From the NCBI RefSeq assembly GCF_901686465.1, contig NZ_LR594487.1:2803773-2867772 (forward strand): DNA of 64,000 nucleotides, given 5' to 3'. This DNA comes from Halorubrum sp. DM2. Lineage in GTDB: Archaea > Halobacteriota > Halobacteria > Halobacteriales > Haloferacaceae. Shown piece by piece: positions 51,639 through 55,975 of this stretch. Made by a program: the position numbers and the translations under genes. The notes under the pieces are model-generated. The model did no database searches and was not told the origin of the DNA. It saw only the letters and a program-made list of their open reading frames with translations. The stretch's first letter is position 1. Each line of letters begins with the position of its first letter.

Positions 51639-52388
51639 TCAGAGCACGAACGGGCCGCGCTGTCTGATCGGCTCGCCGTGGGGGCGTCCCGAGACTGCGA
51701 CCGCACGCAGCGAATCCTCGCTGCGGACGTCGACCGTCGCCGCCTCCGTCACCGGAAGCACGTCGCCCTCGGCGATCGCCGCGCCGTCGACCGTCCCCGC
51801 ACCGTCTACGGCGTAGAGGAAACCGGTCCATCCGTCGGGAACGGACCACGCCCACGAGTCCGTGACCTCGATGTCGAGGTACTCCACCGGCGTGTGCGTC
51901 GAGAGCGGCGACCCGTCGCCGACGACCGTGGTGACCGTCGCCCCGTCGAGCGTCTCGGTCGGCAGTTCGTCGGCCGCGGCGTCCGCGTAGTCCGGCTCCA
52001 TCTCCTTCCGCTCTCGCGGCAGGTTGATCCAGAGCTGGAGTCCGTTACAGCCCGCTCCGTCGGCCGGGAACTCGGAGTGGCGGATCCCGCCGCCGGTCGT
52101 GATGTGCATCGCCTCGTTCTCGCGGGCGGTGTTCGTGACGCCGAGGCTGTCCTCGTGGTCCATCCCGCCCTCGATCATATACGAGACGATCTCGAACCCG
52201 CGGTGCGGGTGCATCGGGAACCCTTGGTCCGGCTCGATGTAGAACCGCTCGAAGAGGACGAACGGGTCGAGGTGCTGCGGGTGCGCCCCCGTCGGAAACG
52301 CTCGATTCGAGTTTACGCCCGTGCCGTGGCGGACCGGCTCGCCGGAGACGGGAGCCGCTCGGTCCGCACTCGGCTGACTGGAAGTCAT
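51639..52388 (-). CDS. Pirin-family protein
   Basis: The 249-residue cupin protein starts MTSSQPSADRAAPVSGEPVR. The first cupin barrel carries the pirin metal-binding pattern (GFPMHPHRGFEIVSYMIEG, MHITTGGGIRHSEF), and the second is degenerate, as usual. Related proteins are quercetinases or redox-responsive regulators. It faces the superoxide dismutase gene across a shared AT-rich control region, so it may be part of an oxidative stress response. A 12-residue-longer frame exists but the ATG at 52388 fits the family better. Confidence 0.85.
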   Translation of the reverse strand: MTSSQPSADRAAPVSGEPVRHGTGVNSNRAFPTGAHPQHLDPFVLFERFYIEPDQGFPMHPHRGFEIVSYMIEGGMDHEDSLGVTNTARENEAMHITTGGGIRHSEFPADGAGCNGLQLWINLPRERKEMEPDYADAAADELPTETLDGATVTTVVGDGSPLSTHTPVEYLDIEVTDSWAWSVPDGWTGFLYAVDGAGTVDGAAIAEGDVLPVTEAATVDVRSEDSLRAVAVSGRPHGEPIRQRGPFVL

Positions 52389-52429
52389 GTTCGACCCGAG
52401 CCGACCACAGCCGATAAGCATCACGATTA

Positions 52430-52540
52430 CGGAACTGAGAAATTATCAATAAAAATTGGTATTTCTTGATAAAACGCTTCAGGTAGTCTTTTAAGCTAAT
52501 TTAGTAGGTTTTTATCATAGCAGTATTTTTACTGGAACGC
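52430..52540. promoter_or_regulatory. AT-rich divergent control region between pirin and SOD
   Basis: This is a markedly AT-rich block in an otherwise GC-rich window. It contains the inverted repeat TTATCAA (52443-52449) and TTGATAA (52466-52472), and T-rich boxes at about 52508-52514 and 52524-52532 that could serve the SOD gene. The repeat spacing suits a dimeric regulator. Its identity is unknown. Confidence 0.6.
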
Positions 52541-52589
52541 GTTACAGAGAACCTTCTTACCCGTGCCGCGAGTACAATGGGACGCAACA

Positions 52590-53189
52590 ATGAGCTACGA
52601 ACTCGATCCGCTGCCGTACGACTACGACGCACTGGAACCGCACATTTCCGAGCAGGTGCTCGAATGGCATCACGACACCCATCATCAGGGGTACGTCAAC
52701 GGTTGGAACTCGGCCGAAGAGACGCTCGAAGAGAACCGTGAGTCCCACGACTTCTCTTCGTCCGGCGGAGCCATCCGCAACGTGACCCACAACTCCTCGG
52801 GCCACATCCTCCACGACCTGTTCTGGCAGAACATGTCGCCGGAGGGCGGCGCGGAGCCCGAGGGAGCGCTGGCCGACCGCATCGAGGAGGACTTCGGCTC
52901 GTACGAGGCCTGGAAGGGCGAGTTCGAGGCGGCGGCCTCCGCGGCCGGCGGCTGGGCACTTCTGGTGTACGACACGTTCTCGAACCAGCTTCGCAACGTC
53001 GTGGTCGACAAGCACGACCAGGGCGCTGTCTGGGGCGGTCACCCCATCCTCGCGCTGGACGTCTGGGAACACTCCTACTACCACGACTACGGTCCGGCTC
53101 GCGGCGAGTTCGTCGACAACTTCTTCGAAGTCGTCGACTGGGAGGAACCCTCCAGCCGCTACGAGCAGGCCGTCGAGCTGTTCGAGTAA
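52590..53189 (+). CDS. sod: Superoxide dismutase (Mn/Fe family)
   Basis: The 199-residue enzyme starts MSYELDPLPYDYDALEPHIS. The ligand set is complete: His in LEWHHDTHHQGYV, His in HNSSGHILHDLFW, and the DVWEHSYYHDY motif containing Asp and His ligands. Halophilic SODs of this type use manganese. It converts superoxide to peroxide and oxygen, protecting a respiring cell. It faces a pirin gene over an AT-rich control region; the leader is about 40-60 nt if initiation is from the boxes near 52510-52530. Confidence 0.96.
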   Translation: MSYELDPLPYDYDALEPHISEQVLEWHHDTHHQGYVNGWNSAEETLEENRESHDFSSSGGAIRNVTHNSSGHILHDLFWQNMSPEGGAEPEGALADRIEEDFGSYEAWKGEFEAAASAAGGWALLVYDTFSNQLRNVVVDKHDQGAVWGGHPILALDVWEHSYYHDYGPARGEFVDNFFEVVDWEEPSSRYEQAVELFE

Positions 53190-53378
53190 GCGCGTCTCCG
53201 GGCGCGCCCGACGCGTAGTCTGACGCGTCGTTGAGCGCACCCGACGCGCCGTCTCCGCTCCGTACGTCTCGGCCGCCGCCGACGGAGCGGAACTGTGGGC
53301 GTCGGCCCTCTCTCTGCGGTTTTCGACTCGACCCGACCTGACTCGACTCGGCGAGCGGCGGCGCTCCGGCGACGAGCG

Positions 53379-54341
53379 TTACTGCGCGTCGCGTTCGGGG
53401 CCGTCCGTCTCGACGACCGTTCCGGACTCGTCGACGCCCACGCGCATCTCGTCGCCCGCGCAGCCGACCGTCAGCCGCACGCGGAGCGGGTCCTCGGAGA
53501 CGACCGTCGTCGCGGCGTCGCTCACGCACCAGTCGAACTCCCAGAACGGTACCGAACTCAGATCGACGCCGCGGTCCGCGTGGAACCGGAGGACGTCGGG
53601 GTCGTCGAGCAGCAGGAGGCCGACCGTCGACCGGAGGTCGTAGCTACACCGTTGGCAGGCGTGTTCGACCGCGACAGCCTGTCCCTCCTCGTCGGGCGTC
53701 CGCACGAGGTCGGTCTCGACGGTTCCGGTACACTCGGGACAGACGCCGTCCGCGGCCAGACAGTAGTGGTGCCGGACGTAGTGGTGGAACGCCTCCAGCA
53801 GGTCGTCGGTAGACCGGCCGTCGAGCGCGCCCGCCGGGAAGGGGTAGCTCACCTGTATCGCGCCGCAGTCGGTACAGCCGATGGAGAGCGTGTCGTCGAC
53901 GTACCAGGCGTGGAGGTCGCCGCCGCAGGCGTGACACGACCCCTCCGCCGGGAAGAAGCCGAGCTGCGCCCGCTCGGTCAGCGTGCCGGTGAAGATGGAA
54001 CTCACCACCTTCCGCCCCGGTGCGCGGAACTCGTACCCCTCCTCGCGCCGCCGGACGAAGTGACCGATGAGCTGGTCGAGGTGGTAGCTGAAGTTCGCGC
54101 TGTCCGTCGCGTCGACCCGCTCGAAGAGGTCGGTAAAGCTCACCGGCGACTCGTCGCCGCCGAGTTCGAGCAGCGCGTGGAGGACCTCGACCCGCGTCTC
54201 GTTGCCGAGGACCGCGAACACCTCCGCGGGCGGGATCCGCGATTCCGTCCGGGGAGTCGCGGCCGCGGCGTCGGCTCCGTCGATGCGATCCGCGCGGTCC
54301 CCGTCGGAGGCGACGCCGCCGGATCGGTCGAACTGGCTCAT
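53379..54341 (-). CDS. ArsR-like transcriptional regulator with zinc-ribbon C-terminus
   Basis: The 320-residue protein has a winged-helix domain (about 35-110: EVFAVLGNETRVEVLHALLE and NFSYHLDQLIGHFV). The C-terminal half contains four CxxC pairs (CHACGG, CTDCGA, CPECTG, CQRCSY), suggesting two zinc ribbons. Similar multi-domain ArsR proteins are common in haloarchaea. It is divergent from an aldehyde dehydrogenase gene, and a palindrome related to one before that gene lies 13 nt upstream of its ATG, implying autoregulation. The effector is unknown. Confidence 0.85.
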   Translation of the reverse strand: MSQFDRSGGVASDGDRADRIDGADAAAATPRTESRIPPAEVFAVLGNETRVEVLHALLELGGDESPVSFTDLFERVDATDSANFSYHLDQLIGHFVRRREEGYEFRAPGRKVVSSIFTGTLTERAQLGFFPAEGSCHACGGDLHAWYVDDTLSIGCTDCGAIQVSYPFPAGALDGRSTDDLLEAFHHYVRHHYCLAADGVCPECTGTVETDLVRTPDEEGQAVAVEHACQRCSYDLRSTVGLLLLDDPDVLRFHADRGVDLSSVPFWEFDWCVSDAATTVVSEDPLRVRLTVGCAGDEMRVGVDESGTVVETDGPERDAQ

Positions 54342-54353
54342 ACGTCACCCTCG

Positions 54354-54369
54354 TTTACCGAGCGGTAAA
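54354..54369. promoter_or_regulatory. Palindromic operator TTTACC-N4-GGTAAA (regulator side)
   Basis: TTTACCGAGCGGTAAA lies 13 nt before the ATG of the ArsR-like gene. Its outer parts match the second palindrome at 54464-54479. Position near the start codon suggests it blocks initiation or elongation. Confidence 0.75.
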
Positions 54370-54463
54370 GTCTGTTGGAGCGGGTGGGACGCCGGCGCTC
54401 CCTGCCGGCGATCGATCCATCGAACCGGACGCAATCGCCGCTACCTCTCCCCTCTTTGCCTTT

Positions 54464-54479
54464 TCTACCGTTTGGTAAA
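54464..54479. promoter_or_regulatory. Palindromic operator TCTACC-N4-GGTAAA (aldehyde dehydrogenase side)
   Basis: TCTACCGTTTGGTAAA ends 5 nt before the ATG of the aldehyde dehydrogenase. It shares TACC-N4-GGTA with the palindrome 110 bp away. In a leaderless gene this would overlap the transcription start, consistent with repression. Confidence 0.75.
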
Positions 54480-54484
54480 CTGTA

Positions 54485-55975
54485 ATGACTACCGACCTAT
54501 CGATCGACGCGGACTGGGACGAACTCTACGTCGACGGCGAGTGGCGGGCGAGCGAGAGCGGCGAGACCATCGCCGTCGAGGACCCCTCGACGCGCGAGAC
54601 GGTGACCGAGGTGGCCTCGGGAACCGAGGCCGACGTGGACGCCGCCTACGAGGCCGCCGCCGAGGCGCAGGAGTCGTGGGGCGAGCAGCCGCCCGCGCAC
54701 CGGCAGGAAGTTGTCGAGCAGTTCCTCGGCGCGCTCGACGCCCACGCCGACGAGATAATGGAGCTGCTGGAGTACGAGGTTGGCGGCTCGGCGATCATGG
54801 GTGAGACGTCGATCCAGATCGCGGCCGACCACGCGAGCGAGGCCGCGACGCTCCCCCGCCGGATGAAGGGCGAACACGCCGCCTCCAACATCCCCGGCAA
54901 GGAGAACCAGCTTCAGGTGGGCCCCAAGGGCGTCGTCACGGTTATCTCGCCGTGGAACTTCCCGCTGAACCTCTCGATGCGGGCGGTCGCGCCGGCGATC
55001 GCGGCCGGTAACTCGGTGGTGCTCAAGCCGTCGACGAACTCCCCGATCACCGGCGGCCTGCTGTTCGCGAAGCTGTTCGAGGAGACCGACCTCCCCGAGG
55101 GCGTGATCAACGTCGTCACCGGCCGCGGCTCGGAGATCGGCGACCGCGTCGCGAGCCACCCCGAGAGCGACGTCGTCGCCTTCACGGGCTCGACCGAGAT
55201 CGGCAAGCGCGTCGCGGGCCTCGCCGGCGAGAACCTCGCGGTCCCGGCGATGGAGCTCGGCGGGAACAACGCGCACGTCGTCACCGCGGACGCCGACCTC
55301 GACCGCGCGCTCGACGGGGCCGCGTTCGGCTCCTTCGTCCACCAGGGGCAGGTGTGTATCTCGATCAACCGCCACGTCGTCCACGAGGACATCTACGACG
55401 AGTACGTCGCGGGCCTCGTCGACCGCGCCGAATCGCTGCCGGCCGGCGGCGTCCACGACCCGGAAACGATCGTCGGGCCGATCATCGACGAATCGCAGCG
55501 CGACGAGATGCTCGGCTACGTCGACGAGACGGTCGACGCGGGCGCGACGCTGGAGACCGGCGGCCACACGGTCGACGTCGACGGCGTCGACGACTCGCTC
55601 GTGGTCGCGCCGACGGTCCTCTCGGGCGTGACGAACGACATGCCCGCTGCGGCGAACGAGCACTTCGGCCCGATCGCGCCCGTGATCCCGTTCTCGGACG
55701 TCGACGAGGCGGTCGCGATCGCCAACGACACGGAGTACGGACTCTCCGGGGCGGTTCACTCCGGCGACCTCGGCACGGCCAAGGAGATCGCCGACCGCAT
55801 GGAGACCGGCAACGTCCACATCAACGACCAGCCGATCAACGACGAGGCGCACGTCCCGTTCAGCGGGATCGGCGCGTCCGGCGTCGGCCACTACAACAGC
55901 GACGCGTTCTTGGACGAGATCACCGAGACGAAGTGGATCTCGATCCAGCACGACCCGCGCGAGTACCCGTTCTGA
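54485..55975 (+). CDS. Aldehyde dehydrogenase (NAD(P)-dependent)
   Basis: The 496-residue enzyme has the cofactor loop ISPWNFPLNLS and FTGSTEIGK, the catalytic glutamate in MELGGNNAH and the nucleophilic cysteine in GQVCISINRH (near 290). It oxidises an aldehyde, probably aromatic or short aliphatic, to the acid. Substrate cannot be read. An ArsR-like regulator is divergently transcribed from it, and paired palindromes suggest repression until an aldehyde or related effector is present. A second, more distant family member is at 61.4 kb. Confidence 0.92.
   Translation: MTTDLSIDADWDELYVDGEWRASESGETIAVEDPSTRETVTEVASGTEADVDAAYEAAAEAQESWGEQPPAHRQEVVEQFLGALDAHADEIMELLEYEVGGSAIMGETSIQIAADHASEAATLPRRMKGEHAASNIPGKENQLQVGPKGVVTVISPWNFPLNLSMRAVAPAIAAGNSVVLKPSTNSPITGGLLFAKLFEETDLPEGVINVVTGRGSEIGDRVASHPESDVVAFTGSTEIGKRVAGLAGENLAVPAMELGGNNAHVVTADADLDRALDGAAFGSFVHQGQVCISINRHVVHEDIYDEYVAGLVDRAESLPAGGVHDPETIVGPIIDESQRDEMLGYVDETVDAGATLETGGHTVDVDGVDDSLVVAPTVLSGVTNDMPAAANEHFGPIAPVIPFSDVDEAVAIANDTEYGLSGAVHSGDLGTAKEIADRMETGNVHINDQPINDEAHVPFSGIGASGVGHYNSDAFLDEITETKWISIQHDPREYPF

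Follow-up and report, generated by a model that had tools for sequence, protein, structure and literature searches.

Which protein reads the two matched palindromes that occupy the divergent promoter region between the regulator gene REG and an aldehyde dehydrogenase gene of Halorubrum sp. DM2? The original prediction took the adjacent regulator to be the binder, acting within a self-contained aldehyde-responsive switch. Comparison of promoters and gene content across related genomes leads to a different answer: the palindromes very probably serve as operators for a trans-encoded TetR/BetI-like repressor (TetR below). Its regulon would be catabolic and dispersed, and would include the dehydrogenase along with, at this locus, REG. 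The adjacent regulator thus looks like one target of TetR and not like the reader of the sites.

The palindrome pair and its setting

The features discussed here are collected in Table 1; the window is the whole stretch of 64,000 nucleotides that was analysed. Two matched palindromes are indeed present in the divergent region, conserved and above chance expectation, with the predicted start-to-start distance of 110 bp and the predicted gap of 5 nt between the dehydrogenase-side site and the dehydrogenase ATG (54485). The gap between the REG-side site and the REG ATG (54341) measures 12 nt instead of the 13 nt claimed. Most Halorubrum relatives that have the REG/dehydrogenase pair keep both palindromes at unchanged positions, and the pattern over the promoters of both genes fits the proposal that they would be the sites of one dimeric regulator.

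Table 1. Coordinates of the operators, genes and promoter elements
Feature	Position	Strand	Remarks
REG-side operator TTTACC-GAGC-GGTAAA	54354..54369	.	TTTACCGAGCGGTAAA; 6-bp arms perfect
Dehydrogenase-side operator TCTACC-GTTT-GGTAAA	54464..54479	.	TCTACCGTTTGGTAAA; single arm deviation, T to C
REG, 320 aa, DUF7347 winged-helix and DUF7351 double zinc-ribbon	53379..54341	-	Probably controlled through the operator rather than its reader
Aldehyde dehydrogenase (PF00171), 496 aa	54485..55975	+	Proposed regulon member
Presumed BRE/TATA region of the dehydrogenase promoter	54451..54460	+	CCTCTTTGCC; orthologues CCTTTTCNC/CCTTTTTGC; inferred from promoter comparison
TetR-family gene (outside the window)	G000:C1:1779489-1780169		TetR_N and BetI-type C-terminal Pfam matches

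The window holds three copies of the core motif TACC-N4-GGTA, where dinucleotide shuffles lead one to expect 0.19; at least three copies were seen in 0 of 100 shuffles. A second-order Markov model gives an expectation of 0.47 per 64 kb, and a pair no more than 150 nt apart arose in none of 150 such simulations. When the full TTTACC-N4-GGTAAA form is searched with at most 2 of 12 mismatches, the two sites of Table 1 are the only ones in the window. The third core match (2519-2530, TACCGCCGGGTA) lacks the TTT/AAA flanks and is, together with most other genomic matches, treated as background. That the palindromes arose by chance or represent a promoter element that no specific protein reads has a negligible probability: TTTACC does resemble a TATA box, and stray TTTACC-N4-GGTAAA copies are found in 5 of 89 TetR-less genomes, but the shuffle counts, the position-specific conservation across genera with a variable spacer and the tight link to TetR all speak against it. 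Chance origin was ruled out by the shuffles and the Markov simulations.

The presumed BRE/TATA region sits approximately 25-34 nt 5' of the dehydrogenase ATG, so that the dehydrogenase-side operator follows the likely TATA region (CCTTTTC-like) and precedes the start codon. In the attempt to name a specific substrate for the dehydrogenase, no NCBIfam equivalog cut-off was reached. REG orthologues in the closest named relatives are 89-95% identical, and structural comparison of REG yielded weak matches only, with none at E<=0.001 and no convincing full-length match; DUF7347 and DUF7351 are not mentioned in the literature searched. The usual neighbour of REG is a superoxide dismutase gene. REG adjoins the dehydrogenase in the clade of the window, lies approximately 0.9 kb from it in Natrinema versiforme, and adjoins the TetR cluster in Halorubrum salinum and Halorubrum laminariae. 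Between the superoxide dismutase gene and a pirin-like ORF, the window also holds an AT-rich inverted repeat (TTATCAA...TTGATAA, 52441-52475), possibly an unrelated operator.

Sites elsewhere in the genome point to a TetR-family repressor

The 3.45-Mb genome contains 15 occurrences of TACC-N4-GGTA, but the strict TTT/AAA-flanked form is found at three places only: the REG-side site and positions 1779414 and 1783126. The two sites outside the window fall within a single catabolic cluster (1.78 Mb, approximately 1.1 million bases from the window), in the divergent TetR/amidohydrolase intergenic region and in a CoA-transferase promoter. The cluster consists of an amidohydrolase and a FAH-family hydrolase gene, the divergent TetR-family gene, and an operon for a CoA-transferase III and a thiolase. 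In several genera the TetR/amidohydrolase intergenic region carries TTTACC-N4-GGTAAA or a variant of it. Both Pfam matches of the TetR protein exceed their cut-offs (helix-turn-helix TetR_N, PF00440, 3.2e-9; BetI-type C-terminal domain). Its AlphaFold model predicts nine helices (pLDDT 79.7) and has 177 matches in the PDB at E<=0.001, the best being 3crj from Haloarcula. No publication on the operator or on the TetR cluster was found in the literature searched.

Across relatives, the genes that carry the operator or are linked to TetR encode an amidohydrolase, a FAH-family hydrolase, a TatD/amidohydrolase-2-like enzyme, a CoA-transferase, a thiolase, a pirin, a glyoxalase-family protein and the dehydrogenase, a set that points to the catabolism of an organic compound.

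Several further sites were noted. In the Halorubrum TetR clusters, the stretch from the main operator to the amidohydrolase ATG holds a further conserved element that resembles a palindrome, TTAACC-TCTT-GGTCAA (L046:7377-7415, G000:C1 about 1779380-1779414, and orthologues), and is possibly a second operator. Near the TetR cluster, a conserved one-mismatch site, e.g. TTTACCAACCTGTAAA (L046:3667-3682, with equivalents in L238, L239 and L252), is flanked by a TatD/amidohydrolase-2-like gene and a BNR-repeat gene and perhaps marks a further regulon member. In two other genera, one-mismatch operators are found approximately 12 nt 5' of pirin genes (L242:8230-8245 and L247:5338-5353). The match at 606082 (ATTACCAACTGGTAAA) lies beside an ORF without a Pfam match, and those at G000:C1:902463 and 1805871 share identical contexts (GCCAGCAGTACCGCGAGGTAGCTGGGGA) approximately 0.9 Mb apart, which points to a duplicated segment, possibly the rRNA operons.

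Promoters of the regulator orthologues

The proposal that REG is a dimeric repressor of itself and of the dehydrogenase, bound to both palindromes and released by an aldehyde or a redox signal, draws on the divergent gene arrangement, on the ArsR-like winged helix of REG and on the site that adjoins REG in almost every REG/dehydrogenase pair of Halorubrum and, in a one-mismatch form, in Natrinema versiforme (L054). A binding site of REG should also be found beside its orthologues elsewhere, yet none of 44 distinct unlinked REG promoters has the site at up to one mismatch, where unlinked means beside neither the dehydrogenase nor the TetR cluster, the latter judged within the fetched stretch. 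For REG, the search of related genomes gave the outcome that the original prediction had named as refuting it, palindromes not conserved beside the orthologues of the regulator. In the operator-less REG promoters, a TATA-like TTTTATC/TTTTAG stands at the place of the TTTACC arm. REG genes with and without the site encode one and the same predicted recognition helix (residues 81-91, SANF(S/N)YHL); altered REG specificity therefore does not account for the difference.

Thirteen linked REG promoters (dehydrogenase or TetR cluster) contain a match at up to two mismatches; in L051 the closest match is the dehydrogenase-side site, and the REG-side site has two mismatches. L055 and L075, in which REG lies by the TetR cluster and the dehydrogenase is absent, have their own site with 1-2 mismatches near the REG start, whereas G057, with REG approximately 4 kb from the TetR cluster, has none. 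Because an operator or near match appears at the REG start when the gene lies beside the dehydrogenase or the TetR cluster, REG is best seen as a target, and from its position we infer that the REG-side site controls REG.

Dehydrogenase promoters with and without REG

Nine dehydrogenase orthologues without an adjoining REG, from TetR-containing genomes of three genera (g1, g3, g5), are 80-95% identical at the protein level and retain, 2-6 nt 5' of the aligned start, a site with no more than a single mismatch. G135 lacks a REG orthologue altogether; its dehydrogenase is 95% identical, and the proximal operator of the window is copied there letter for letter. The only two dehydrogenase-bearing Halorubrum genomes without TetR (G120 and G129) show decayed versions at the operator position, TCTACCGTTTGATGAA and TCTACCGTTTGGTAAC, although both are drafts in which the absence of TetR could be an assembly gap. 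No site was found at some dehydrogenase homologues of TetR-containing genomes (G032, G070, G075, G154 and the second copy in G139); their identity is 74-77%, and they are possibly paralogues.

The TetR gene adjoins the dehydrogenase in G019 and G066. Gene order in G066 (L248) is pirin, superoxide dismutase, TetR, Rieske protein, SDR and dehydrogenase, compared with a pirin-like ORF, superoxide dismutase, REG and dehydrogenase in the window (51639-55975), which suggests a common ancestral neighbourhood for TetR and REG.

TetR could also bind both sites with the REG-side one serving as an auxiliary operator of the dehydrogenase, through looping or co-operative repression, and REG itself escaping control. 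A spacing of 110 bp amounts to approximately 10.5 helical turns and would permit bridging by looping. We consider this arrangement improbable, since dehydrogenase genes without REG have the proximal site only, REG in L055 and L075 has its own site with no dehydrogenase, and G156 combines a perfect REG-side site with an eroded dehydrogenase-proximal one.

Sites co-occur with TetR, not with REG

Of the 33 TetR-containing genomes among 52 from Halorubrum, 23 have strict sites, against 0 of the 19 that lack TetR (p=2.8e-7). The presence of REG shows no significant association with the sites (p=0.17). All p-values of this kind overstate independence, as the genomes are related and phylogenetic dependence inflates significance, and draft assemblies may lack some genes. 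Where TetR is present without REG, 8 of 12 genomes have strict sites, contrary to the expectation that the operator is missing where REG is missing; where REG is present without TetR, 0 of 7 do. Ten TetR-containing Halorubrum genomes have no strict site; most of those examined have a one-mismatch variant, and G123 has neither site nor variant near its TetR gene. The same pattern holds in 119 genomes of the family (15 of 30 with TetR, 5 of 89 without; p=2.8e-7), with p=6e-4 for TetR outside the genus, compared with p=0.18 in the family and 1.0 outside the genus for REG, the same caution about relatedness applying. The strict sites in the five TetR-less genomes (G015, G039, G060, G085 and G114, one each) look like background.

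REG as the binder was rejected on the promoter comparison and this co-occurrence, and as an account of the locus it is very unlikely: the dehydrogenase site follows the dehydrogenase and the trans-encoded TetR, with or without an adjacent REG. The likely reader being encoded approximately 1.1 million bases away, the switch would not be self-contained, and the ideas of REG autoregulation and of effector or redox sensing by its zinc-ribbon half found no support.

The TetR recognition helix varies together with the operator. A (T/S)RQV helix goes with the symmetric TTTACC/GGTAAA in 36 of 37 sites (perfect matches), and an SRTL or TRQI helix with one arm of the form GGTCAA/TTGACC in 11 of 11 (p=5e-10, uncorrected for relatedness; one or two events may underlie the covariation). 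In the TetR model the covarying residues precede and enter the predicted recognition helix 70-75. This covariation is strong, though not independent, evidence for TetR as the reader.

Proposed mechanism

Each TTTACC-N4-GGTAAA palindrome would be occupied by a TetR dimer. The dehydrogenase operator is placed after the TATA region and before the start codon, and the REG operator over the TATA position, so bound repressor should keep TBP/TFB or RNA polymerase from acting at either promoter. Since both placements should block archaeal initiation, the likely mode is repression relieved by a metabolite, for which the Sulfolobus acidocaldarius repressor FadRSa offers a precedent (PMC6449355). The same TetR would also sit at its own/amidohydrolase-FAH promoter and before the CoA-transferase-thiolase operon; operators at both the 1.78-Mb cluster and the dehydrogenase would assign the latter to a dispersed catabolic regulon. 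A small pathway metabolite presumably releases the repressor, and REG would here be a second-tier regulator under TetR control.

More tentatively, and with somewhat less than even chances, the locus may represent a two-tier circuit in which a DUF7347/DUF7351 regulator, otherwise linked to superoxide dismutase and operator-less, has been captured into the TetR regulon. Capture would have occurred by gain of a TetR operator over the REG TATA box upon landing beside regulon genes, i.e. the dehydrogenase (Halorubrum, Natrinema versiforme) or the TetR cluster (Halorubrum salinum/laminariae). If so, TetR would set when the second regulator acts.

Comparison with known systems

To our knowledge, operators have been defined for few haloarchaeal TetR regulators, and none was found in the literature searched. 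In the present case, comparative analysis by itself delivers a specific operator together with the protein that probably reads it and a group of target genes, as well as a correlation between recognition helix and operator. The locus also illustrates that assigning palindromes in a divergent region to the neighbouring regulator can mislead, since the protein that binds may be encoded a megabase off, with the adjacent regulator as its target.

REG resembles the ArsR/SmtB family in its predicted winged-helix fold and in a weak HTH_metalloreg match of its DUF7347 region (25.2 bits versus a subfamily cut-off of 55). It differs in falling under this curated cut-off and in its large DUF7351 zinc-ribbon half, and assignment as an ArsR/SmtB metalloregulator was rejected in favour of DUF7347 and DUF7351.

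For TetR, the closest solved structure is the Haloarcula marismortui TetR regulator 3crj (sequence E=2.4e-26, TM 0.90 by target), although the two proteins are only approximately 31% identical. TetR shares with BetI/AcrR-type repressors the TetR_N domain, the BetI-type C-terminal domain and a divergent, putatively autoregulated arrangement, but a choline-sensing BetI was rejected, as the protein scores far under the NCBIfam equivalog cut-off (34.8 versus 201.3 bits) and choline genes are not among its neighbours. PfmR (TTHB023) of Thermus thermophilus is a TetR-family protein that recognizes a 16-bp palindrome in several promoters including its own (PMC7022988). The Halorubrum system is similar in this respect, and PfmR is among the structural matches (3vpr); PfmR is, however, bacterial, has another consensus and controls genes of fatty-acid metabolism.

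The palindrome pair together with a TetR encoded in trans would form part of an archaeal TetR regulon, a type of system that is already known. FadRSa is a TetR-family repressor with few genomic operators of approximately 16 bp and dyad symmetry, one at its own gene and others at a CoA-linked catabolic cluster, and is released by a CoA ester (PMC6449355). The Halorubrum TetR likewise is archaeal and has few putative dyad operators of about this length at its own gene and at CoA-linked catabolic genes, although the Foldseek match to FadRSa (6el2) is remote, with only 13% identity. Furthermore, the FadRSa cluster is contiguous, whereas the predicted Halorubrum regulon would include a gene pair 1.1 Mb away.
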